DNA of 50,677 nucleotides from an uncultured Nitrospirota bacterium. Its GTDB lineage: Bacteria > CG2-30-53-67. Positions 35,121 to 47,943 of the stretch are shown here, piece after piece. The position numbers and the translations under genes are program-made. Every line of letters starts with the position of its first letter. The first letter of the stretch is position 1. Under the pieces are notes generated by a model. That model searched no databases, was not told the origin of the DNA, and saw only the letters and a list, made by a program, of their open reading frames with translations. The stretch is taken from contig CAMYMF010000029.1 in the NCBI GenBank assembly GCA_947259355.1, forward strand, positions 1 through 50,677, written 5' to 3'.

Positions 35121-36806
35121 TTAGAGCATGTCGATAAATCCGCAGGGGCACTCCTCTGCACACTTCTTGCACCCCTGACAGGTGTCGAGGTGAAACTCGT
35201 AGTGCTCGCCGAACGGCAGGTCTTTGGACAGTTTCTTCACCGCGCTGTCGGAACAGAAAGTGAAGCAGTTGTCACAATCGAAGCATCGGCCGCAGCTCAT
35301 GCATCGCTTGGCCTCCTCGATGGCCTGCTCCTGCGTCAGGGCAAAACGGATCTCGTTGAAGTTTGTCTTGCGCTCCTCCGGTGGCAGGAAGCGCTCCTGC
35401 GTCCGCTCCAGCGTTACATAGTGTCCCAGATTCATCTTGTCCGTGCGCACCACCGGCCAGTCGGGATTCTTCTCGATACCGTTGCCCTGCAGGTGCGCGT
35501 GGATGGATGCAGCCGTGTTTCGTCCGATGCCGATGGCCTCCGTGGCAATGCCGAGCCCGATGGTCACGTCGCCACCGGCCCACACGCCGTCCATCTCGGT
35601 CTTGCCCTCATCGTCCGCGTTGATCCAGCCGCGATCGTTCTTGAACTGCTCCAAGCCTTCGTAGTCCGGGGCCTGGCCGATGGCCGAGATGACCGCGGTG
35701 GTCTCTACCGTAAATTCTGAGCCTTCGATGGGCACCGGGCGCCGCCGACCGGAGGCATCGGGCTCTCCCAGTTCCATGCGGAGACAGGTCATGGCCGTGG
35801 CCCGTCCGTTGCCGTCCTTGGTGATTTCCACGGGGGCGGCGAGGAATTCGAAGTTGATCTTTTCCTCTTCGGCCAGGACGATATCGTGGTCAATAGCGGG
35901 CATCTCATTGCGGGTCCGCCGATAGAGGATGGTCACATCCGCACCCAGCCGCAAAGACGTCATGGCCGCATCGATGGCCGTGTCCCCGCCGCCGATGACA
36001 ATCACCTTGTTGCCGATGTCCACTTTCTCCCCGGCACTGATCCTGTGGAGAAAATCCGCACCGGTCCAGACATTGGTCGCATCTTCTCCGGGGATATTCA
36101 TGTCCCATCCGGTGTGGGCGCCAATGGAGACGTAGATGGCTTGGTACTCTTTTTTCAGATCGTCGAAACTGATGTCCCGCCCGATCTTCGTGTCGTACTT
36201 GATGCCAACGCCGAGATCGGCAATCTTCTGTATTTCCGCATCGAGTACATCATCGGGAAGCCGATAGATGGGGATGCCGAAGCGGAGCATCCCGCCGCCC
36301 TTGTCAAACATCTCAAAGACCGTGACCGGGTATCCCCGCCGCGCCAGCTGATAGGCACAGGAAAGGCCTGAAGGACCGGCCCCAATGACGGCGACCTTCT
36401 CCGCGTGGCTGTCGCCGTTGAGCTTTTTCAGCGCCAGCTTGTTCTCGATTCCATAATCCCCGATGAAACGTTCCATGTTGTTGATGCCCACCGCCCGATC
36501 TTTCTCCTTGCGGTTGCACTCCGCTTCGCAGGGATGGGGGCAAACCCGACCCATGACAGCGGGGAAAGGATTCTTGTCGGTGATCGTGTGCCACGCTTCC
36601 TCAATGGCTTCCTCATGGGACCAGGCATAGTTGTCCGTCTGGGCGATCTTCACCAGATAGCCCCGGATGTCCTCGCCGCTGGGACATGCGTACGTGCAGG
36701 GCGGCGTTTTGAAGGTGTACTGAGGTCTCAGGGTGGAACTCTCGGCGCCCCGTCCGCCGCGTCGAATCCCGATCTTTCGCTTTATCTTTCTCACCACGAT
36801 CGCCAT
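35121..36806 (-). CDS. dsrL: DsrL-type iron-sulfur flavoprotein, NAD(P)H oxidoreductase of the Dsr system
   Basis: Protein of 561 aa. N-terminal FeS motifs TPPCTYACPSGEDIRGYL and MGRVCPHPCEAECNRKE are followed by FAD site VAVIGAGPSGLSCAYQL and nucleotide site VIVIGGGDTAIDAAMTSLRLGA. The C-terminal two-cluster ferredoxin has CMSCGRCFDCDNCFTFC and CQGCKKCAEECPCGF. This order and the NFNEIRFALTQEQAIEEAKRC linker match DsrL, which in Allochromatium moves electrons between NAD(P)H and DsrAB. It is shorter than the about 650-aa DsrL of phototrophs. A GltD or AegA-like enzyme is the alternative, but position after dsrABD favours DsrL. ATG with AAGGAG upstream. Confidence 0.85.
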   Translation of the reverse strand: MAIVVRKIKRKIGIRRGGRGAESSTLRPQYTFKTPPCTYACPSGEDIRGYLVKIAQTDNYAWSHEEAIEEAWHTITDKNPFPAVMGRVCPHPCEAECNRKEKDRAVGINNMERFIGDYGIENKLALKKLNGDSHAEKVAVIGAGPSGLSCAYQLARRGYPVTVFEMFDKGGGMLRFGIPIYRLPDDVLDAEIQKIADLGVGIKYDTKIGRDISFDDLKKEYQAIYVSIGAHTGWDMNIPGEDATNVWTGADFLHRISAGEKVDIGNKVIVIGGGDTAIDAAMTSLRLGADVTILYRRTRNEMPAIDHDIVLAEEEKINFEFLAAPVEITKDGNGRATAMTCLRMELGEPDASGRRRPVPIEGSEFTVETTAVISAIGQAPDYEGLEQFKNDRGWINADDEGKTEMDGVWAGGDVTIGLGIATEAIGIGRNTAASIHAHLQGNGIEKNPDWPVVRTDKMNLGHYVTLERTQERFLPPEERKTNFNEIRFALTQEQAIEEAKRCMSCGRCFDCDNCFTFCSDSAVKKLSKDLPFGEHYEFHLDTCQGCKKCAEECPCGFIDML

Positions 36807-36955
36807 AGGACATACTCCTTCTTATCTGTTGCTGTTAGAATGTTCTCCAGATTGGGCTCCGGTGCCCGAAAGTGCTCCACAGCGCGTCCTCGCACCCGCC
36901 GGCACGGCCCATCAGGCCCCTGCGGCTTGTCACAGTCGAAGGTCAAGGAGCCTAC

Positions 36956-36996
36956 CTTTTCCGCTGTTGTCCCCCTCCCGCACAACAGCGGAAAAG
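36956..36996. promoter_or_regulatory. 15-bp perfect inverted repeat between dsrD and dsrL
   Basis: Arms CTTTTCCGCTGTTGT and ACAACAGCGGAAAAG around an 11-nt loop, in the 278-bp gap between dsrD and dsrL. No T-run follows on either strand, so it is not a standard terminator. It more likely acts as an mRNA-stabilising or processing hairpin, or an operator. The rest of the gap holds only the ribosome site of dsrL. Confidence 0.7.
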
Positions 36997-37084
36997 ACAG
37001 CCGGGCGCGTCTAACGGGAGGCGACCGACCGCCTGAAACATCACCCTGGCCGACGGGAGTGGCTCTGCGTTCGCCCGGGTTGGC

Positions 37085-37339
37085 TTAATCGCTCTTGGCA
37101 GCGCCTTCTTCACCGGGCAGCGCGCTGAAGCTTCCCCCGGCGTAACCGTAGACACAGCGTCCTGAGTCCATGAGTTCCCGGATGGCGGCCTTACAGTCCT
37201 TCTTGTTAACCTTGTCGCCGTGCTTGCTGATGATCTCCTTGGTCAAATCGCTCGCTTTGAATCGCTTCTTCCCGGCGTATTCCTTGACCATGTTGTACAT
37301 CTCGTCCGCAATCTGGGCAGTGGGCATGGCATCTGACAT
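37085..37339 (-). CDS. dsrD: DsrD, sulfite reductase-associated protein
   Basis: Protein of 84 aa with the winged-helix-like DsrD fold: EMYNMVKEYAGKKRFKASDL, then NKKDCKAAIRELMDSGRCVY. DsrD has been reported as an allosteric activator of DsrAB in sulfate reducers and is widely used as a marker of the reductive pathway. It starts 15 bp after the true dsrB stop, with GAGGAGG upstream. No change in base composition against its neighbours is visible. Confidence 0.93.
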   Translation of the reverse strand: MSDAMPTAQIADEMYNMVKEYAGKKRFKASDLTKEIISKHGDKVNKKDCKAAIRELMDSGRCVYGYAGGSFSALPGEEGAAKSD

Positions 37340-37354
37340 TTCTCAGGCCTCCTC

Positions 37355-38369
37355 TTAGAATTTGATCTGCGCCGAGCGTGCAAAGGTCTCGCCGGCGTGA
37401 CGGAAATCGTCAATGTGATATTTGGTGAATTCGAAGCCGGTCATATCAAAGAACCTCGGCCAGCCAATCCGCTCGATCCACTCGCCGACAGCGGGGCGGA
37501 TTGTTCGGCAGGAAGGGATGGGCCAGTTTGGTAAACATCGGTTCCGAGCGGGCATTGGACACCTTACCGCCCACCCAGAGAGACACACCGTCATTCAACG
37601 CATCGGCGATGGGCATGGCCGGACAAACGGTGTAGCAATTCGCACAGAACATACAGCGGTCCTCATCGACCTTGACGGTCTGCTTGCCTTCGACAGTGGT
37701 CGGCCGGATGGCCGCGGTCGGGCAGGACGACACGGTCGTCGGGATCTCGCACACCCGGGAGACCTGCTCATCCTTGATTTTCGGCGGTCTCCGGTGGATC
37801 CCCAGGATGGCGATGTCGGAGCAGTGCACAGCACCGCACATATTGAGGCAGCAGGCCGCCGCGAGTTTCAGCTTGTAGGGAAGCTTCATGTCGACGAAGT
37901 ACTCATAGAGCTCATCCATGGTCGCCTTGACCAGACCGGACACATCGGTCGCGGCGGAATGGCAGTGGACCCATCCCTGGGTATGGATGATGTTGGAGAT
38001 GGCGTTGCCCGTACCGCCGACGGGGTAGCCCTGCGCCTCAACGTCCTTGATCAGGGGCTCGATGCTCTTCTCCTTGTCCGTGAGGAACTCGACATTGTTC
38101 CGGCTGGTGAACCGGAGGAACCCATCGCAGTACTTGTCCGCCAGGTCGGCGAAGAGGCGGATCACGTCCACACTAATGAGGCGGGGTGATCCGACGCGAA
38201 TGGAATAGATCTTGTCGCCGCTCTCTGCCACATGGACCATGACGCCCGGCTTGAGGTACTCGTGGTATTTCCACTGGCCATAGTTCTTCTTGATAACCGG
38301 ATGGAGGAACTGCTCATAGTGGGGCGGTCCAATATCTGTCTTTCTCGGTGCACTCGGTTGTGTTGCCAT
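37355..38369 (-). CDS. dsrB: Dissimilatory sulfite reductase beta subunit, C-terminus frameshifted
   Basis: Beta subunit of siroheme sulfite reductase. Seen: [30 protein letters not shown] for the siroheme-linked cluster and ferredoxin [12 protein letters not shown]. The frame is correct from ATG 38369 to PFLPNNPPR at 37491, then runs on to a spurious stop at 37446. The genuine C-terminus ([20 protein letters not shown] to AQIKF, stop 37355) is in another frame. Compared with D. vulgaris DsrB about 24 residues that follow PPR are missing, a loss of about 71 nt. No cofactor ligand is lost, but the subunit tail is. dsrD follows the true stop by 15 bp. Either a real mutation or an assembly fault. 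Confidence 0.88.
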
Positions 38370-38445
38370 CGGTTCTTACCTCCTATTGATCGGTTCTGAC
38401 TTTTCAGATGAATGATGGAGCCGCTGCCTGTCTCACATGTCGCTA

Positions 38446-39651
38446 CTAACCCGTACCGTCATCCTCGAAATACTCTTCGTAGAAGATGTACGGATTGGTC
38501 CGGGGGTGCTTCACATGTTCAGGCTGGGGATCCACCTCGATGGCTTCCAGGAAATTGCCGAGACCGACCCGCTCGATACACTCACCGATCCGCTCGCGGT
38601 TGACACCGTGCTCATCCCAGAATTCCCAGATCCGCTCCATGAGGTCCTTGAACTCCTGGTAATCGTCGTCCTTGTCCATCTTCATGAAGGGGACCAGAAC
38701 CGACGAGAGCAGGGCCCCTTCGATGATGGGCGCCTTGCCGCCGATAAGAATCGTCGCCCCTGTGTCCTTTCCGGGCCGCAGGGCCTTGGGCATGGCATTG
38801 ATGCAGTGCATGCACCGGTTACACTGTCGGTTGTTGATGTGAATTTCCTTGCCGTCGTACCGCATGCAGGCTGTCGGGCACTTGCGGGTGACATCGGCAC
38901 GAATGTCCATCCCGGTGTCCGCGTAGGCCTTCACCGCGGCCTGGTCGATCCGGATGTCGTCCCGCCAGGTTCCGATCACCGAGAGGTCCGACCGGGCGAT
39001 GGACGCCACGCAGTCGTTCGGACAACCGGCAAACTTGAATTTCCACTTGTAGGGGAAGGCGGGACGGTGCAACTCATCCTGGTATTCCATGGTGATGTTG
39101 TAGCAAACATCCATGGCGTCGTAGCAGGCATACTCGCACCGGGCCATCGCATTGCAGCAACTGGGCGTTCTCACGTCCGAGCCAGACCCCCCGAGGTCCC
39201 ACCCTTTTTCGGTCAGTTTCGCGAAGATCGGCTCCAGCTCCTCCGACGTGGTTCCCAGAAAGACACAGTCTCCCGTGGAGCCGTGCATGTTGGTCATCCC
39301 CGATCCGTGGGCCTCCCAGATATCGCAGAGGTCTCGCAGCGCCTGAGAGGTGTAGAACCAGCCTGAGGGCTGATTGACGCGCACGGTGTGAAAGTGCGCG
39401 ACATCGGGGAACTTGTCGGGAGAGTCGGAGTACCGGCCGATGACACCGCCGCCATATCCGATCACGCCGACGAGGCCGCCGTGCTTCCAGTGCCCGACGC
39501 GCTCCTTGTAGGAAAGCTCCAATTGCCCCAGCAGGTCGTTGACCATGGGCTTTCTCTCGGCAATCTTCTTCATGTCCGTCACGAAACTCGGCCACGGCCC
39601 CTTTTGCAGGTCATCCAGAAGAGGCGTCTCTCTTAATTTGTGATCTGCCAT
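38446..39651 (-). CDS. dsrA: Dissimilatory sulfite reductase alpha subunit
   Basis: Alpha subunit of 401 aa, intact. Seen: [67 protein letters not shown] and [11 protein letters not shown] for the siroheme-coupled [4Fe-4S] site, and ferredoxin [15 protein letters not shown]. It reduces sulfite, handing a trisulfide to DsrC, or runs in reverse in sulfur oxidisers. It is shorter than D. vulgaris DsrA (437 aa) mainly because the loop before the KCPTAC motif is short. ATG with AAGGAG 9 bases upstream. A terminator lies just upstream of its leader, so it is probably transcribed separately from dsrMKJOP. Confidence 0.96.
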
Positions 39652-39730
39652 GCTCGGTTTCTCCTTTCATTGCTCCCCGACACCGCCGGGAAATTCCATA
39701 TGATAACCAAACCAAAACCTTTATAGATCT

Positions 39731-39750
39731 AAAAACGGCCTGGCCCAGGC
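39731..39750 (-). terminator. Intrinsic terminator between the HEAT-repeat gene and dsrA
   Basis: On the minus strand GCCTG-GGC-CAGGC followed by CG and five T residues (39735-39731), 6 bp after the HEAT gene stop. A short stem, so perhaps only partial termination. Confidence 0.55.
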
Positions 39751-39756
39751 ATTGCG

Positions 39757-40419
39757 TCACCGGTTGAGATGTGCCAAAGCTTCCCGGGCAATTGCGGCCA
39801 CCGTCTTTTCGTTGAGTTGCTCGTCTTCATACAACAGCGTAACGCCGGCATCCTCGGTGAGCCCCTGCAGCCGCGCTGTCGCGTCGGCACCACCGATCTG
39901 CCCCAGGCTCCAGGCGGCCATGCCCCGAACCGCCGCGTCGGGGTCCTCCGTGAATGAGAGCAGCACGGGCATGACCTTTTGCACCCGCTTCGGTTTGCCC
40001 CCGCCGAGTCGTCCGAGGGCCCACAGCACACCGACGAGGATCTCCGTGTTGCGGTTCGGCGGGCGGCAGGTCTCGGGATCCTCGATATAGTGGATGACGA
40101 CGTCTACGCCGTGCTGCACGAGCCCGATGTTGTTCCGCCCGATCTCACCGATACACTCAGGGGCGCCCCGCCCGATGCTTCCGGCTTCATCGTTCAGGGA
40201 CCAGATCAGCCGGTCCACTTCCTGTGCAATGAGATCGGGTCGCTCGGCGGCAAGCCATCCAAACATGCTCACGGTCCGCCACTTGACCAGCGCCTCTTCC
40301 GCGTAGAGCAGGGACCGTAACGACCGAACCGTTTTGCGATGGGCGCCGAACGTCACCAGTACTTCCGGATACTTTCTGGCCCGCAGCAGTTCCACAAGCG
40401 CTTGCCGGGATCTTTTCAT
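39757..40419 (-). CDS. HEAT-repeat protein linked to the dsr cluster
   Basis: Protein of 220 aa made of HEAT/PBS-lyase-like helical repeats: TVSMFGWLAAERPDLIAQ, ILVGVLWALGRLGG and AAVRGMAAWSLGQIGGAD. No catalytic motif, signal or membrane segment. Such repeats mediate protein-protein contacts. It starts 6 bp after dsrH, so it is translated with the sulfur-relay proteins, and a terminator follows. Inference: an adaptor or scaffold for DsrEFH, DsrC or an iron-sulfur partner; function unknown. Confidence 0.8.
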   Translation of the reverse strand: MKRSRQALVELLRARKYPEVLVTFGAHRKTVRSLRSLLYAEEALVKWRTVSMFGWLAAERPDLIAQEVDRLIWSLNDEAGSIGRGAPECIGEIGRNNIGLVQHGVDVVIHYIEDPETCRPPNRNTEILVGVLWALGRLGGGKPKRVQKVMPVLLSFTEDPDAAVRGMAAWSLGQIGGADATARLQGLTEDAGVTLLYEDEQLNEKTVAAIAREALAHLNR

Positions 40420-40425
40420 GTCGGG

Positions 40426-40719
40426 CTACAGCCAAGAGTGAGGACGGTGTTCCTCCACGAGCCGGACAAAACCGGCATAATCACACACCGTCACTCCGTC
40501 GACCACCCCCTCGATCCCGCGGGCCTTGAGATCTGCCTGCAGCGCGTAGACAGGATGGCGCCCAACGGTCTCCTTCATCCGTCCTTCAAGGGACGTGCCC
40601 TTCTTGACCGCAAAGACACCGTCCTCAATGAGCAGAATCGGATCATCGGCCTGGGCAATACGAAGACAGGTGTCCAGATTTCCATTCGAAAAAGGGGACT
40701 TATTCACGATGTGAAGCAA
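40426..40719 (-). CDS. dsrH: DsrH, sulfur-relay protein (TusB family)
   Basis: Protein of 97 aa. MLHIVNKSPFSNGNLDTCLR closely follows the DsrH N-terminus; C18 corresponds to the sulfur-carrying Cys20 of Allochromatium DsrH, which enteric TusB lacks. IEDGVFAVKKG and VCDYAGFVRLVEEH also match. In sulfur oxidisers DsrEFH passes persulfide sulfur to DsrC. Third gene of dsrE-F-H; 33 bp after dsrF. Confidence 0.9.
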   Translation of the reverse strand: MLHIVNKSPFSNGNLDTCLRIAQADDPILLIEDGVFAVKKGTSLEGRMKETVGRHPVYALQADLKARGIEGVVDGVTVCDYAGFVRLVEEHRPHSWL

Positions 40720-40752
40720 GGTATCTCCTCCTCAACCAATGCGGACTCGGCG

Positions 40753-41124
40753 CTAGAACGGGAGCAGCACATCCTGTTCTCCCATGGCCTTGCGAAGTGT
40801 GGCGCCGTCGACCACCTCCACATCTACGATCAGATCATCCGGCGTCAACCCGCGCTTCTCCAGAGATTCCTTCTCCACATATCGATTTTCCACACCGTAG
40901 GCCTCCAGCACGCGGAAGGTGGCGGAGAACTCCTTCACGCCCAGCTCCGAGGTGTCCTGTCCTTTCTTGAGGGAAAAGACGGCATCGTCCAGAAAGGCGG
41001 CACTGATTTCCTGGTCGTAGGCCCCGAAAATCAGGACCACTTCCAAGCCTTCGTAGGCGTAAATGGACCCGTGCGGCGCCCGCCGATTCACAAACATGAT
41101 TTTTCTCGGTGCTTGCTCTTCCAT
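40753..41124 (-). CDS. dsrF: DsrF, sulfur-relay protein (TusC family)
   Basis: Protein of 123 aa. VNRRAPHGSIYAYEGLEVVL, GAYDQEISAAFLDDAVF and GVKEFSATFRVL are typical DsrF/TusC segments. It is the structural partner in the DsrE2F2H2 hexamer and carries no catalytic Cys in characterised homologs, nor here. It begins 26 bp after dsrE. Confidence 0.92.
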   Translation of the reverse strand: MEEQAPRKIMFVNRRAPHGSIYAYEGLEVVLIFGAYDQEISAAFLDDAVFSLKKGQDTSELGVKEFSATFRVLEAYGVENRYVEKESLEKRGLTPDDLIVDVEVVDGATLRKAMGEQDVLLPF

Positions 41125-41150
41125 ATGATGGCGACTCCTTGTGGATTCCC

Positions 41151-41507
41151 TCAGTCCCCGAAAGTGATCAGCCGGTCCGATTCGATGCAGAGTTCACTGA
41201 GCTGTCCCAGCCCGTCGATACGGGCATGGTCGATCAGAACGTCTGAATTGATCCCACGCCGCTTGGCCGCAGCGACACAGACGATCAACGGGACGCCCTT
41301 GGCACCCAGTTCAGACCAACGCTTGCTGATATGACGGTCGTCCGCAGGGATGTCCATCAGCTTGGTCGTATTGGTCACGCCATCGTTGTAGAAGAAGACG
41401 CCCGTGATCTTATGCCCCTCGGCCAGTGCCGCCTGAATAAAATGGTAGGCACTGTCCGAGGCCTCATGATTGTAAGGGCCCTCCTGAACGAGAATTCCGA
41501 ATGTCAT
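41151..41507 (-). CDS. dsrE: DsrE, sulfurtransferase (TusD family)
   Basis: Protein of 118 aa. MTFGILVQEGPYNHEASDSA, GVFFYNDGVTN and LIVCVAAAKRRG match DsrE/TusD, with C77 aligned to the active-site Cys78. In sulfur oxidisers it receives sulfur and, with DsrH, passes it to DsrC; in E. coli the TusBCD version serves tRNA thiolation. Location directly after dsrC and the conserved DsrH Cys support the Dsr role. GAGGAG 5 bases before the ATG. Confidence 0.92.
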   Translation of the reverse strand: MTFGILVQEGPYNHEASDSAYHFIQAALAEGHKITGVFFYNDGVTNTTKLMDIPADDRHISKRWSELGAKGVPLIVCVAAAKRRGINSDVLIDHARIDGLGQLSELCIESDRLITFGD

Positions 41508-41548
41508 CTCTGCTCCTCAACTCACCGCCGGGCAAGGCGGTCAGGATC

Positions 41549-41583
41549 GGAGGGACCACCCTCTTGAGATCAGTGATCCCTCC
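41549..41583. promoter_or_regulatory. Stem-loop in the dsrC-dsrE gap
   Basis: In the mRNA GGAGGGAUCAC pairs fully with GUGGUCCCUCC (11 bp, one G-U) around a 13-nt loop. A short palindrome GACGGTACCGTC (41672-41683) lies just after the dsrC stop. No T-run follows. It may stabilise the dsrC message end, since dsrC is usually made in excess. Confidence 0.5.
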
Positions 41584-41687
41584 GGATAACCACTTGTGAA
41601 ACCGTGATGCCGCCGGCTGCCGGGACGTTGCATCCAAGAACACCCGGCGCCCCGCCGGCCAAAAGAACGCTGACGGTACCGTCCGGC

Positions 41688-42023
41688 TTAGACGCAGCCC
41701 GTCGGTTTGGGGAGCCCGGCAATCTTGCAGGCCTGCTTGGCCGGTCCCGCCGGATAAAGCTCATAGAGGTATTTGGTGTTGCCCTTTTCTTTGCCGAGCT
41801 TCTTGCCGATGGCCTTGGTCAGGATGCGGATCATGGGCGCAATCTTGTATTCCGCGTAGTAGTCCCTGAGGAAATTGACTACTTCCCAATGGGCGTCGGT
41901 CATGTCGACATTTTCGGTCTTGGCCAGCGCCAGTGCAACCTCCTCATTCCAGTCCCCGATGTCGGCCAGGAAGCCGTCCTCGTCCAGCGCGATGTTCTTG
42001 CCGCCTACTTCGATAGCACTCAT
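41688..42023 (-). CDS. dsrC: DsrC, sulfur-carrier protein
   Basis: Protein of 111 aa. The C-terminal swinging arm GPAKQACKIAGLPKPTGCV has both functional cysteines, C99 and C110, 11 residues apart as in Desulfovibrio (93 and 104), so it is a true DsrC and not a one-Cys TusE-like paralog. It forms the DsrC trisulfide with DsrAB, which DsrMKJOP reduces. ATG 42023 has GGAGGG 8 bases upstream. Between dsrP (97 bp) and dsrE (180 bp). Confidence 0.96.
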   Translation of the reverse strand: MSAIEVGGKNIALDEDGFLADIGDWNEEVALALAKTENVDMTDAHWEVVNFLRDYYAEYKIAPMIRILTKAIGKKLGKEKGNTKYLYELYPAGPAKQACKIAGLPKPTGCV

Positions 42024-42120
42024 GTTCAATTCCCTCCATACCGTGTTAAATAACAGGGTTTAATAAAACGGGGTGCTCCCCCCGAACAACGTCCGCGTGG
42101 CCTCGACCCGCGCCAAGCCC

Positions 42121-43278
42121 TTATGCTGCCGTCTCTTCCTTGACGCCGACGGCCACTTTGTAAAGAATCGTCAAGATCAGAAAACCGATGGCCCACACAC
42201 CCAGTGTGATCAGCAGCTCCGCACCCGTCGGTGCATACTCGACGACCCGCTCAAAGGGATTGGGGATGAACCCGCCGACGACGAGTCCCATGCCTTTGTC
42301 GATCCAGGTCGACACCACCACCGCCGCCGCGGCCGCGGCCAGCAGATTCTCCTGCCGGCGCCATTTCGGAACGAGTAGCAGGGCAATCCCCACGGCCGCC
42401 AACACCACGAAGGTCCACATGAAGGGCACCAGCTTGCCATGCCCGTCCAGCCCGAAGAAGAGATACTGCAACGAGTGCATATGGCCCGGAATGCCGCTGT
42501 AGAAGGCGGTGAAGAACTCCAGCAGCAGGAAGAAGACATTGGTGATCATGGCATAGGCCACGATTTTGGCCAGGGTCTGAATCGCTTCTTTGCCCGGATC
42601 GAATCGGCTCACCCGCCGGACAATCAGACAGAGAATGATGAGCAGGGCCGGCCCCGAGGCGAAGGCCGAGGCGAGAAAGCGCGCCGCCATGATGGCCGTT
42701 AGCCACAGGTGTCTGCCCGGAAGCCCCGCATAGAGAAAAGCCGTAACGGTATGAATACTGACCGCCCAGGGAATGGACAGATAGATGAGCGGTTTCACCC
42801 AGCCAGCGGGTTGCACCCCTTTACGCTCAGCCCCCAGGGTGGCCCAGCCGATAATGATGTTCAGCAGGAAATAACCGCTCAGCACGATCATGTCCCAGAA
42901 CATGACCGAATTGGGCGTGGGATGGAGCACGACGTTCATGACTCGAAAGGGCTGGCCCAGATCGACGAAGATAAATAGCACGCACATGCTCACTGCGGAA
43001 ACTGCCAGAAACTCACCCAAGATCACAATCTTTCCGAACGTCTTATAGTCGTGCAGATAGTACGGCATCACCAGCATCACTGCAGACGCGGCCACCCCGA
43101 CCAGATAGGTGAACTGCGCCACATAGAAGCCCCACGAGACGTCTCGGCCCATACCGGTGATGGTCAGACCGTCTCGGAGCTGCTGTAGATAGAAGAGGAA
43201 CCCCACCCCGATGATGCCCAAGAGCAGGGCGATCCAAAGCCAGTAGCCGCGACTGCCGCGCAATGCCTTTTCAAGCAT
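42121..43278 (-). CDS. dsrP: DsrP, NrfD-family integral membrane subunit
   Basis: Protein of 385 aa with about ten hydrophobic helices, beginning [40 protein letters not shown] and [19 protein letters not shown] are family segments. It is the quinone-interacting membrane subunit of DsrMKJOP, paired with DsrO. 12 bp after dsrO. Confidence 0.95.
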
Positions 43279-43290
43279 GGTTGCTTCCCC

Positions 43291-44103
43291 TCAGACAATA
43301 TAGAAGACAGAAGGATCCGTACCCAGTTCCGGTTTGCGTCGGATGGTGTAGTGCTCCCGAAGTATCTGACGCACTTCGGAATGCTCATCGGCCACGTCCC
43401 CGAAGACCAGCGCGCCGTGCCGGCAGGCTTCGACGCAGGCCGGAATCTTCCCCTCGGCCAGCCGTTCCACGCAGAAATTGCACTTTTCCACCACACCCTT
43501 GTTTCGCGTGGGGTATTCTTGATTGATCTCTTTCAGGAAAGGCTCCCCCTGGGCGTTCTTGCCTCGCGGGTCGCGCCAGTTGAAGCTTCGCGATCCGTAG
43601 GGGCAACCCGCCATACAGAAGCGGCAGCCGATGCAGCGATGCATGTCCATGGTCACGATCCCGTCCTGTTTGCGCTTGAACGTGGCCTTCGTCGGGCAGA
43701 CCCGCACGCAGGGGGGATGGGCGCAGTGGTTGCACAGCACCACGAAGGGCTCGTGATGAAGGTGCTCGGCCAGATACTCGCTCTCCTGCTCCGGAAAGGC
43801 GTGGGCAAAGGCTTCCTTCCAGATCCACTTGATTTCATCTTTGGGATTGCCGAAGTCGGGCACGTTGTGGATCCGGTGACACCGTTCCATGCAATCCTTG
43901 CACCCCGCCTCGGGCAGGCACTTGCCCATGTCGATGACCATGGCCCAGCGCTTGGCCGTGAGTGCACTCTCCTTGGCCGCATAGGAGACGCTGGTGGCTT
44001 CGAGTTCTCCCGGCCCGAGAAGTTCAAAGGCCGCCCGGCTCCCCAGCCCGGCCAGCGCCGAGAGTCCAGCGATCTTTATGAATTCCCGTCTGTCGAAGCC
44101 CAT
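43291..44103 (-). CDS. dsrO: DsrO, Tat-exported ferredoxin subunit
   Basis: Protein of 270 aa. The N-terminus FDRREFIKIAGLSALAG is a Tat signal, so it works in the periplasm. Ferredoxin motifs include CNHCAHPPCVRVCP, CIGCRFCMAGCPYG and CNFCVERLAEGKIPACVEAC, plus a CLPEAGCKDCMERCH set near the N-terminus. It connects DsrJ to DsrP. ATG 44103, with AAGGAG 8 bases upstream, overlaps dsrJ by 28 bp; the longer frame from 44142 has no support. Confidence 0.95.
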   Translation of the reverse strand: MGFDRREFIKIAGLSALAGLGSRAAFELLGPGELEATSVSYAAKESALTAKRWAMVIDMGKCLPEAGCKDCMERCHRIHNVPDFGNPKDEIKWIWKEAFAHAFPEQESEYLAEHLHHEPFVVLCNHCAHPPCVRVCPTKATFKRKQDGIVTMDMHRCIGCRFCMAGCPYGSRSFNWRDPRGKNAQGEPFLKEINQEYPTRNKGVVEKCNFCVERLAEGKIPACVEACRHGALVFGDVADEHSEVRQILREHYTIRRKPELGTDPSVFYIV

Positions 44104-44507
44104 AGGTTCTTCTCCTTGGTCGGATCGAGATGGCAGTCCCAACAGTACAGCTCGCTGACACCCATATAGCCGTGGCAGCGATCGCAGAATTTGTCTTTAT
44201 TGGCATGACAGTCCATGCAGGTGTTCTGCAGACTTACGGTGTAGGACTTGCCGGCACTGTTGGTGTAGGTTCGGTTGCCATCCCGAACGGCCGCGTCCCG
44301 CCAGTCGTCGAGCAGCTGCATATGGTTCTGCCGCATCTGTTCCTTGGGCTCCACGCACTGCCCGGCCTGTTTGGCCTTGGCGGTCAACTCCAGCTTCGGC
44401 ATCTCCGAGGTCTTGTCGCTGCCGTACCAGAAGGGTACCGTGAAGAACGCGGCAAAAATGACCAGCCCGGCAATGATCTTACCGGCATCATACAGCATCT
44501 TCTTCAC
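44076..44507 (-). CDS. dsrJ: DsrJ, triheme cytochrome c
   Basis: Protein of 143 aa with one N-terminal membrane anchor (about 9-28) and three heme-binding motifs CMDCH, CDRCH and CWDCH near the C-terminus. A Cys at CVEPKEQMRQNHM corresponds to the unusual extra axial ligand region of DsrJ. Periplasmic part of the DsrMKJOP complex. The ATG lies 20 bp inside the end of dsrK, so translation is coupled. Confidence 0.95.
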   Translation of the reverse strand: MKKMLYDAGKIIAGLVIFAAFFTVPFWYGSDKTSEMPKLELTAKAKQAGQCVEPKEQMRQNHMQLLDDWRDAAVRDGNRTYTNSAGKSYTVSLQNTCMDCHANKDKFCDRCHGYMGVSELYCWDCHLDPTKEKNLWASTDGNS

Positions 44508-46107
44508 CCTCCACGTCTGCGAGATCCTCCTCCCTCAAATCGGTGGTGCGCTCGCCTTCCCCTTCCATGACCAGGGCATTGCCTACGAGTTCGTGAACGC
44601 CGGCCACCTCGACCATGGGGATCCAGTACTGCATCAAGGTGGAGAGGGTGGCCCGGTCGATGGCGCAGATACACGAGAGCAGGTCGACCCCGTGTTTCTC
44701 GTGCACATACTTGACGGCATTGGCCCGGGGAAACCCGCCCCGCATTCGCATCTCCATATACTCATCGGTATTAAGGCCGGTGCCGCTCCCGCAGCAGAAC
44801 GTCTGCTCGCGGATGGCATTCTCCGGCATTTCGTGGAAATTGTTGACCACATTCTTGAGAATATATCGGGGCTCCTCGAAAAGCCCCATGGCCCGGGAGG
44901 GGTTGCAGGAATCGTGAAAGGACACCGTCCGGTGGTCGTTGCGTCTGGGATCGAGTTTGAGTTTGTTGTGCTGGATCAGGTCTGCCGTGAATTCGGTGAT
45001 GTGGACCATCTTGGTCGATTTGGCGTTTTCGAACTTCGTTCCCGTGATTGGAGAGACCGGCGCTTCCAGGAAGTCTGCGGGACCGTTCATGGTATCCATA
45101 TACTGATGGATCACCCGCCACATGTGACCGCACTCCCCGCCCAGGATCCACTTGACGCCGAGCCGTTTGGCCTCGGCATACATCTTGGCATTGAGCTTCT
45201 TCATGGTCTCCTGGTTGGTGAAGAGCCCGAAATTGCCCCCCTCGGAAGCATAGGTACTCATGGTGTAGTCGAGACCGATGTGCTCAAAGAGAAGTATGTA
45301 TCCCATGAAAGTATAGATGCCGGGGTCCGCGAAGGCATCGGCCGACGGCGTGATAAACAAAATCTCCGCCCCCTTTTTGTTCAGGGGCACCTCGATATGA
45401 ACACCCGTCACATCTTCAATGTCCTCGCAGAGCGAATCGATGCTGTCCCGTAACGTGTGGGGCTGCAGGCCCAGGTGATTGCCCGTGCGGGAGCAGTTCG
45501 AGGCGGGCTCCAGGATCCAGTTGATGTTGACCCCCACCAGGTGCAGCAGTTCCCGGGCCATCATGGTGATCTCCGCCGTGTCGATGCCGTAAGGGCAAAA
45601 AACGGAGCAGCGGCGGCACTCGGTGCACTGATAGAAATAGTAGAACCACTCCTTGAGCACATCTACCGTCAATTCCCGGGCGCCGGCGAAATGGCCCAGG
45701 ATCTTACCGGCCGTGGTGAAGTCCTTGCGGTACACCGAGCGAAGCAGCTCCGCGCGCAGCACGGGCATGTTCTTGGGATCCCCCGTGCCGAGGAAGAAAT
45801 GACACTTATCCGCGCAGGCACCGCAGCGCACGCAGATATCCATGAAGATTTTCAGAGAACGGTACTTGTTGAGCCGATCTTTGAACCCTTCGTAAATGAT
45901 CTTCTGCCATCCTTCGGGCAGCTTCCAGTCCTCGTCCGGCGGCGACCACTCCCGCACATTGGGCAACCCCAGCGCTTCCAGCGCCTTGGGTTTGCCGCTG
46001 TAACACCAGGTGCCGGGCCGAAACTCCACCGGGGTCTCCATCCAGGGGGTTTCGGGCGGTTGATGACTGATCTTGGCCAGTTCAGCGGGTGGTGGCGTCT
46101 TGCTCAT
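44488..46107 (-). CDS. dsrK: DsrK, HdrD-like iron-sulfur catalytic subunit
   Basis: Protein of 539 aa, cytoplasmic face of DsrMKJOP. Two [4Fe-4S] motifs (CVRCGACADKCHFF and CTECRRCSVFCPYG) are followed by two CCG-type regions (HMWRVIHQY and neighbours, then CCGSGTGLNTDEYMEMRMRGG) that hold the noncubane cluster thought to reduce the DsrC trisulfide. ATG 46107 starts MSKTPPPAELAKI 13 bp after dsrM; the frame continues 23 codons upstream without homology. Confidence 0.95.
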   Translation of the reverse strand: MSKTPPPAELAKISHQPPETPWMETPVEFRPGTWCYSGKPKALEALGLPNVREWSPPDEDWKLPEGWQKIIYEGFKDRLNKYRSLKIFMDICVRCGACADKCHFFLGTGDPKNMPVLRAELLRSVYRKDFTTAGKILGHFAGARELTVDVLKEWFYYFYQCTECRRCSVFCPYGIDTAEITMMARELLHLVGVNINWILEPASNCSRTGNHLGLQPHTLRDSIDSLCEDIEDVTGVHIEVPLNKKGAEILFITPSADAFADPGIYTFMGYILLFEHIGLDYTMSTYASEGGNFGLFTNQETMKKLNAKMYAEAKRLGVKWILGGECGHMWRVIHQYMDTMNGPADFLEAPVSPITGTKFENAKSTKMVHITEFTADLIQHNKLKLDPRRNDHRTVSFHDSCNPSRAMGLFEEPRYILKNVVNNFHEMPENAIREQTFCCGSGTGLNTDEYMEMRMRGGFPRANAVKYVHEKHGVDLLSCICAIDRATLSTLMQYWIPMVEVAGVHELVGNALVMEGEGERTTDLREEDLADVEGEEDAV

Positions 46108-46120
46108 ATCATGTATTCCT

Positions 46121-47146
46121 CTATTCTGCCGTTTCAGAAGGTGTTGCGGCCTGCTTCTCAACGGGAAGGCCGGCACCGATCATGGCCTCACGGAACTCGT
46201 CCTCGTACTCTTCGTACGTATGATACTTGACCGGATAATTCCAGGGGTTCACATGGCGGACCTCCCGGCTGTTGTTGGTCTGGTTTCTCGTAGGGCTCAG
46301 AAACACACCGCCCATATGGACAAGCTTGCTGAACGGGAAATAGGCAAAGAGCACGCATATCAGAAAGAGATGGACATAAAACACGGCACCGATGGGTCCC
46401 TCGGGCATCCGGGGGCTGAGCGTGACCAGGCTCATGGTCAACGCTTTCACGCTCACCAGATCGACCTTGATGAAATAGCGCATCAGGATTCCCGAAATAG
46501 CGATCCCCAGAATGAGGAAGAGCGGGAAAAAGTCGGCCGGCAAGGAAATGTAACGGACCTGCGGCAGCATCAGTCGCCGTACGACCAAGAAGGTCACCGC
46601 CGCCAGAATGACCAGATCCGTCATGAAGAGCCGGGGCACACCGATCTGCAGCAACCCGTCGAGCCCCTCGAGAAAGGGTACGAAGAAGGGAATCGGTTCC
46701 GAGAAGAACCGCAGGTGCCGCAGGAAGATGTAGAGAAACGTCCAGTGAAAGGCCAGTCCCGCCAACCAGAGGAATTTCTCCGAACCGTAGACCAGTTTCT
46801 GCTCCCCCCCGCTGTAGTCGGCCTGGGTGTTGCGGAAGAGAGAGCGGAAGAAGAACACTTCCAGAGCCATGCGACCGATGACGCCGGCGGTATTGTGGGG
46901 GGTCTCCAGATTGTCCGCTTTGATCCACGGCAGTGATTTCTGCTGGCCGCAGGTCGACGGAATCTTGAAGGGCACCGGTGAGCGGGCCCACCCGATCACC
47001 CGGGCAATCATGCCGCCCAGAAAGATCACGAAGGCTGCATAGGGGATGACGATACCGAAGAGCCCGCTCAGGTGCGCTCCCTTGACGCCGACAATGGCGA
47101 GCACGACCAGGGCGATGACAGCAAAGAGGGGCAGCATTACGTTCAT
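46121..47146 (-). CDS. dsrM: DsrM, NarI-like cytochrome b membrane subunit
   Basis: Protein of 341 aa with five to six membrane helices and His residues suited to b-heme binding (AFHWTFLYIFLRHLRFF, FYVHLFLICVLFAYFPFSKL). It oxidises menaquinol and passes electrons to DsrK. First structural gene of the complex, 59 bp after the RsbRD-like gene. Confidence 0.95.
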   Translation of the reverse strand: MNVMLPLFAVIALVVLAIVGVKGAHLSGLFGIVIPYAAFVIFLGGMIARVIGWARSPVPFKIPSTCGQQKSLPWIKADNLETPHNTAGVIGRMALEVFFFRSLFRNTQADYSGGEQKLVYGSEKFLWLAGLAFHWTFLYIFLRHLRFFSEPIPFFVPFLEGLDGLLQIGVPRLFMTDLVILAAVTFLVVRRLMLPQVRYISLPADFFPLFLILGIAISGILMRYFIKVDLVSVKALTMSLVTLSPRMPEGPIGAVFYVHLFLICVLFAYFPFSKLVHMGGVFLSPTRNQTNNSREVRHVNPWNYPVKYHTYEEYEDEFREAMIGAGLPVEKQAATPSETAE

Positions 47147-47205: not shown

Positions 47206-47733
47206 CTATCCTTGCGCCGTGCCTCCCATCCGGTTCGCTCTCTCGAGCAGTTTGTGGGTTTGTCGCTTCAACTCATCCGTCTTGAGCTGATAGATGGCTT
47301 CCCGGCATTTCATGTACACATCGAAGCCCATGAGGGCAAGCGCATCGATGCGCGACTCAAAGAGCACCAGACTGTCGGCAATACCGTCTTCCCTCAGTTC
47401 GGTCGCCAGATGCGTGCGAATCGCCTCCTTCAGTGAGAAGATGAACGCCATGGCTTCGGACGGAGCGAAATCCTGAACCGCCTTGATCCGAAGGAGACGG
47501 TCCAGCGAGGGCTTGACCTGCTCGGCATCAGCCCCGCTCAACAGGGCATCAAAAAGCGTTTCGATTTCACGGGAGATGGTGGAGCCGAGTGGATTGGCGA
47601 AACGATCCTCCTTCTTGAGCATTCTGGACGCATCCGACGGGTAGGACGAGACGATCAGGTCAAACCATCTGCCCAGAATAGTTACTTTTCTTTGATTGAG
47701 AAGGCTCTTCAAGTCCATTGCAGGGTACATCAC
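47206..47733 (-). CDS. RsbRD N-terminal-like domain protein upstream of dsrM
   Basis: Protein of 175 aa (170 if ATG 47718 is used), all helical: LKSLLNQRKVTILGRWFDLI, FANPLGSTISREIETLFDAL and EAMAFIFSLKEAIRTHL. This matches the RsbRD N-terminal domain (non-heme globin-like), which in Bacillus sits in stressosome proteins; the STAS domain is absent here. Single-domain versions are known next to dsrM in sulfate reducers. Role unknown; an assembly or sensing factor is possible. First gene after the promoter and operator at 47882-47943. Confidence 0.8.
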   Translation of the reverse strand: MMYPAMDLKSLLNQRKVTILGRWFDLIVSSYPSDASRMLKKEDRFANPLGSTISREIETLFDALLSGADAEQVKPSLDRLLRIKAVQDFAPSEAMAFIFSLKEAIRTHLATELREDGIADSLVLFESRIDALALMGFDVYMKCREAIYQLKTDELKRQTHKLLERANRMGGTAQG

Positions 47734-47881
47734 CCTTCACGACCCGGAGGCGGAAACGTATGGCGATATGAAAATATTACAGATCCCGAATGCGTTAGTA
47801 TATGAAAATCCCGTCAAAGGATCATCTGTTGATATGACTTGGTTGAGTATAAGTGACTGAATGGTAACCTGGAAAAAGCTA

Positions 47882-47907
47882 CGTTATATGCTCCCGTACA
47901 TATAACG
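47882..47907 (-). promoter_or_regulatory. Perfect 9-bp inverted repeat at the dsr transcription start
   Basis: CGTTATATG and CATATAACG around an 8-bp spacer. It begins 7 bp after the -10 box, thus at about +1, the position of a typical repressor site. It does not fit the common FNR, Rex or Fur patterns as I know them. Confidence 0.6.
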
Positions 47908-47914
47908 AGTTGCT

Positions 47915-47943
47915 AATATATAAATTTGGAAAGACCTTGTCAA
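47915..47943 (-). promoter_or_regulatory. Sigma70-type promoter for the dsrMKJOP operon
   Basis: TTGACA (47943-47938), 17-bp spacer, TATATT (47920-47915) on the minus strand. Near-consensus in both boxes and spacing. The leader to the first gene is about 175 nt. The wider gap 47734-48356 is AT-rich; apart from this promoter and the operator it shows no gene, and no convincing plus-strand promoter was identified. Confidence 0.75.

Follow-up and report, generated by a model that had tools for sequence, protein, structure and literature searches.

We propose, at a probability of roughly 45%, that the palindrome lying over the predicted transcription start of the dsr genes is a genus-specific 5'-terminal mRNA hairpin, carried on a promoter that is conserved throughout the family. 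The window, meaning the whole stretch of 50,677 nucleotides analysed here, comes from an uncultured candidate-phylum bacterium, a congener of the CG2-30-53-67 group, and its genome (G000; 3.1 Mb, 89.7% complete) was compared with five others of the same family (G001 to G005, giving n = 6), among which G001 (L015), an uncultured bacterium binned as CG2-30-53-67, is the closest relative and the sole congener. An earlier sequence-only reading had taken the palindrome for a repressor operator controlling the whole dsr operon; its observation is good and its promoter sound, and the palindrome was over-read.

A family-conserved promoter ahead of the dsr genes

The promoter, here called P1, is made up of the following elements:

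47943-47938, reverse strand: -35 box TTGACA, found by promoter scan and kept in all six family genomes
47920-47915, reverse strand: -10 box TATATT, sitting in the conserved CTA(T)TATATTAGCAAYYCRWTATAT
47900..47906, reverse strand: predicted +1 purine at 47906 with the AT-rich initial transcribed sequence GTTATAT

With its layout of TTGACA-17 bp-TATATT, P1 has 11 of the 12 consensus bases of a sigma-70-type promoter, its hexamers stand within the 16-18 bp spacing of that class, and the near-consensus description given earlier was correct in all its coordinates and spacings. It was the top-scoring of the four promoter matches in 4.7 kb, where shuffled sequences lead one to expect 2.0. In the aligned leaders, each of the six family genomes has the -35 box, the -10 box and the +1 region in front of one and the same gene, which bears out the claim of a strong dsr promoter, and that gene is the RsbRD_N-domain gene ahead of dsrM, not dsrM itself. 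The blocks common to these leaders are CAAACRYYGTTTTATT (block A), CTTGACA and CTA(T)TATATTAGCAAYYCRWTATAT. The module TATATTAGCANNNNGTTATAT occurs at the dsr locus of every family genome and nowhere else except for background matches with 3 mismatches. The initial transcribed sequence, RTTATAT across the family, is likewise AT-rich and conserved, and it reappears at a second tandem promoter (P2), and ATAT stands at a fixed distance after a purine in 12 of 12 sites (P1 and P2 in six genomes). Given that the genes upstream of dsr differ among the relatives, all these conserved elements belong to dsr. P1 is thus strongly supported as a real and strong dsr promoter, with a start site predicted from its sequence.

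The genes behind and beside P1 are as follows:

47206-47718, reverse strand: first gene, 170 aa, with an RsbRD_N domain (PF14361, E 6.6e-20)
46121..47146, reverse strand: dsrM, second gene (PF02665 and gene order)
42121..46107, reverse strand: dsrK, dsrJ, dsrO and dsrP (NCBIfam NF045796, NF038038, NF045797 and NF045798, above cut-off)
40426..42029, reverse strand: dsrC (PF04358) and dsrE, dsrF and dsrH (TIGR03012, TIGR03010 and TIGR03011, above cut-off)
35121..40419, reverse strand: a HEAT-repeat gene, dsrA, dsrB, a small gene placed like dsrD, and a DsrL-like oxidoreductase
48357 onwards: a GMC oxidoreductase pair, the divergent neighbour of the dsr run

The operon had been given earlier as dsrMKJOP-C-EFH, and all of these genes are indeed present, but the RsbRD_N gene comes first, with a leader of 188 nt from the predicted P1 start, and the run extends past dsrH to dsrA, dsrB and the DsrL-like gene. 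The genes from the HEAT-repeat gene to the DsrL-like gene lie on the same strand as the upstream dsr genes and are probably on their transcript, and P1 is probably the main sigma-70-type promoter of an RsbRD_N-dsrMKJOP-dsrC-dsrEFH-dsrAB-... operon, whose extent we infer. An RsbRD_N gene stands ahead of dsrM in 77 of the 80 dsrM loci searched, from many phyla; among the three loci lacking a match, the sequence ends almost directly upstream of dsrM in two and covers 500 bases there in the third. Nothing useful was found in the literature on RsbRD together with dsrM or on dsrMKJOP promoters, and the small gene in the dsrD position gave no family match. Two further observations concern this run. 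The reading frame of dsrB is broken close to the 3' end (window 37446-37500, reverse strand), with the C-terminal part in another frame, owing either to an assembly error or to a real frameshift. The gap between the dsrD-like and DsrL-like genes holds a perfect inverted repeat with 15-bp arms and an 11-nt loop (36956-36996).

The palindrome over the predicted start

The feature under discussion overlaps the P1 start:

47907-47882, reverse strand: palindrome CGTTATATG-TACGGGAG-CATATAACG, a perfect 9-bp inverted repeat with an 8-nt loop

It starts 7 nt past the -10 box, so its arms, spacer and position had been described correctly. When arms of 9 bp or more and loops of 3-12 are counted in dinucleotide shuffles, a palindrome of this kind appears in 0.3% of shuffled pieces for the 90 bp around the promoter (P ~0.003) and in 2.5% for the 623-bp intergenic region (P ~0.025), and the whole window of 50 kb holds three comparable repeats as against 1-6 in five shuffled windows. 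The palindrome is notable, then, for its position at the start site and not for its mere existence. Most of its left arm consists of GTTATAT, the start sequence conserved in the family. The right arm, perfect in G000, is otherwise found only in G001, whose version, CGTTATATG-TACGGGAG-CGTATAACG, has one A to G change in that arm; alignment of the dsr leaders of G002 to G005 showed it to be absent there, although the promoter is kept. Within the genus, the palindrome is 25/26 identical, which is no better than much of the adjoining leader.

These data bear directly on the proposal that the start site is covered by a DNA operator, at which a genus-specific repressor with a single target would act on the dsr operon. 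A perfect 9-bp dyad overlapping the +1 of a strong promoter, its retention with one mismatch in the congener and its low chance probability in the 90 bp at the promoter all speak for such an operator, whereas four of the six family genomes keep the promoter without any right arm, and no regulator gene adjoins the locus. The sequence-only reading had looked to further copies of the motif near sulfur genes or in relatives; none was found in the 3.1-Mb genome itself, either exact or with up to 3 mismatches, nor was the dyad found in the aprB leaders of all six family genomes, and the congener alone shares it. Repression of the whole dsr operon through this palindrome finds no support in view of the missing right arms, the lack of a second copy in the same genome or of one at aprB, and the mismatch to ModE described below. 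A repressor operator with a regulon is therefore not supported by the distribution of the sequence, since the dyad is not conserved across the family and has no further copies, and we consider even the single-target operator rather unlikely.

It may also be that the palindrome is a chance outcome of an AT-rich conserved start region, where only the promoter matters. The family-wide conservation of RTTATAT would already explain the left arm, the count of such repeats in the window lies within that of the shuffled windows, and the palindrome is conserved within the genus no more than the leader around it. Nevertheless, the probability that a fixed left arm meets a perfect 9-nt complement within 20 nt is about 8e-5 (a figure calculated after the fact), and the palindrome is nearly intact in the congener; we hold a chance origin to be unlikely, and somewhat more so than the single-target operator.

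The 5'-terminal mRNA hairpin, in turn, is suggested by the predicted fold of the first 40 nt of the P1 transcript, with -10.6 kcal/mol in G000 and -10.5 in G001, in which pairing begins at the predicted +1, as is expected of a stable stem-loop at the 5' end. The A to G change of G001 turns a U-A into a U.G pair, so that RNA pairing is kept and the symmetry of the DNA is broken. As a sign of covariation there is this single change from U-A to U.G, seen between two species, which is weak evidence and cannot separate an RNA from a DNA function; it is the combination of this G.U-compatible change with pairing from the predicted +1 that favours the genus-specific hairpin. Compared with shuffles of the same 40 nt, the hairpin stands out in G000 (z -2.65) but not in G001 (z -0.98), and the folding of the whole dsr leader is unremarkable (z 0.0). 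RNAalifold did not find a common structure for five dsr leaders, no Rfam match above the gathering score was found in the window, and the remaining family members (G002-G005) manage without a hairpin at +1. It has been reviewed elsewhere that 5'-terminal structures hiding the end of the transcript from RppH and RNase E stabilise mRNA (PMC3997798). Following our reading, a sequence complementary to the conserved start GTTATAT would have become fixed downstream of it in this genus, giving rise to the palindrome; the dsr mRNA would then begin with a base-paired hairpin; and most likely this hairpin would shield a very long mRNA from decay initiated at its 5' end, with a corresponding effect on mRNA life.

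Two other roles for the same hairpin were considered. A GGA in an apical loop is the core of CsrA sites, and the hairpin has a GGA in its apical loop UACGGGAG, so that CsrA or another RNA-binding protein might bind there. CsrA genes were found in five of the six family genomes, G001 included, but none was found in G000 (89.7% complete); moreover, the site lies ~170 nt from the start codon and the loop sequence is not kept outside the genus, all of which makes such a binding site very unlikely. The terminator scan also flagged the hairpin, with its 10-bp stem and TAGCTTTTTC tail, as an early intrinsic terminator, that is, an attenuator. However, there are just 3 G-C pairs in this stem, the T-run is 4 nt off it, and this T-run is interrupted in G001 (TAGCTGTTTC) and missing in the other relatives; such a weak and non-conserved terminator was rejected, and we find it scarcely credible.

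Conserved elements around P1 and their meaning

Two more elements flank the start region of P1:

47971..47986, reverse strand: block A, CAAACATCGTTTTATT, whose inverted repeat AAAC-N3-GTTT has its centre at -74 relative to the predicted +1
47766..47780, reverse strand: remnant of P2, with decayed boxes in G000; its element GTAATATTTTCATAT follows the P1 start at a distance of 126 nt

Block A is identical in all six family genomes apart from its 3-nt centre, and CAAAC-N3-GTTTTATT has its centre 73-74 bp upstream of the conserved +1 purine in each of them, a constant distance although the spacers between boxes vary by one or two bases. This makes block A a candidate binding site for an activator or some other regulator, which would be active at dsr. 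P2 lies 102-133 bp downstream of P1 across the family; its -35 and -10 boxes are good in G002, G004 and G005 and have decayed in the remaining three genomes, yet RTNATAT-NYTYATRT persists at P2 even where they have decayed, which suggests that this element has a function independent of promoter P2. Most likely, family-wide regulation would act by way of the upstream inverted repeat and the AT-rich start region, and not by way of the palindrome. A doubtful extension of this idea is that the candidate phylum has a regulator dedicated to dsr, reading CAAAC-N3-GTTTTATT and possibly also ATATTA-N8-TWATAT at the two tandem promoters; if true, it would help to set whether sulfur metabolism runs forward or backward in these bacteria.

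Outside the dsr locus, the 16-mer CAAACACTGTTTTATT of block A was observed in reversed orientation directly ahead of the nuoA Shine-Dalgarno site in three genomes of two genera (G002:C61:2567, G003:C46:47418 and G005:C116:298), and single-mismatch matches to block A occur near folE and eno. A block A regulon was rejected, as these nuoA copies and the folE and eno matches add up unconvincingly.

A separate case is that of the aprB leaders in these six genomes (L183-L189, with two copies in G000 at C5:120155-120520 and C34:1048-1413). Strong conservation extends over about 400 nt upstream of aprB, where no sigma-70 promoter is obvious; this stretch contains a hairpin around CCGGGTAG whose stem shows compensatory changes, the elements ATAAGAACWATTAACTTTAC and ATATTCTAATTT, a second hairpin GTTCCTGCACAGGAAC / ATTCCTCTTCAGGAAT, and GAAGGGAGGTGAA. 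RNAalifold found 5 pairs with double-sided changes in these leaders, and a comparison with Rfam gave no match. The APS reductase operon may have a structured leader in this region.

None of the papers found describes a direct regulation of dsr. It has been reported that a CG2-30-53-67 MAG has both reductive and oxidative DsrAB, and a switch of direction by regulation was proposed (PMC10591310); hence, the upstream site and the start region of the dsr operon are worth testing, and their conservation across the family makes them concrete sites at which to do so. The palindrome is not the starting point for work on dsr regulation, and the present analysis is of value mostly for the elements that the comparison revealed to be conserved across the family.

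Comparison with known systems

The closest look-alike in sequence would be a ModE box, at which a molybdate-loaded regulator blocks transcription, in this case that of dsr. The E. coli ModE consensus is ATCGnTATATA-N6-TATATAnCGAT, and the half-sites CGTTATAT and ATATAACG of the palindrome fit it as CGnTATAT and ATATAnCG (PMC545781). As in the modA Mo-box of E. coli, these half-sites form a dyad at the predicted start of a strong promoter, and the left half is identical to that of the modA operator CGTTATAT-TGTCGCCT-ACATAACG. In contrast to the Mo-box, their spacing is 10 instead of the canonical 8, that is, 2 bp too long, and the target is dsr and not molybdenum genes. A TIGR00637 search of G000 and G001 (drafts 90% and 93% complete) gave no match, and G004, the sole family genome with a ModE match, has no right arm at dsr. 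A ModE box at dsr was rejected on its spacing and on the lack of a ModE match in both genomes carrying the palindrome, and we regard it as highly improbable. As an observation apart, G004 has a single-domain ModE gene ahead of modABC (L201:6384-8997) and, beside modABC at L201:6393, a Mo-box-like site CGTTATTC-N8-ATATAACG with canonical spacing.

In Desulfovibrio, the sites of HcpR at sat and apsAB offer a likeness in the predicted repression of sulfate-reduction genes from a site over the -10 box, and the HcpR regulon there covers sat and apsAB, not dsrAB (PMC545781). Read by eye, the HcpR consensus TTGTGAnnnnnnTCACAA is unlike the palindrome or block A, and CIRCE (TTAGCACTC-N9-GAGTGCTAA), which the TTAGCA behind the -10 box had brought to mind, has no inverted partner here.

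As for the proposed 5'-terminal hairpin, the stabilising stem-loops of E. coli ompA and papA (PMC3997798) provide its comparison. The dsr hairpin differs from these stabilisers in being limited to one genus and in having a start site predicted from the sequence, but it is like them in lying at or within one base of that +1, and in heading a long and presumably abundant mRNA.
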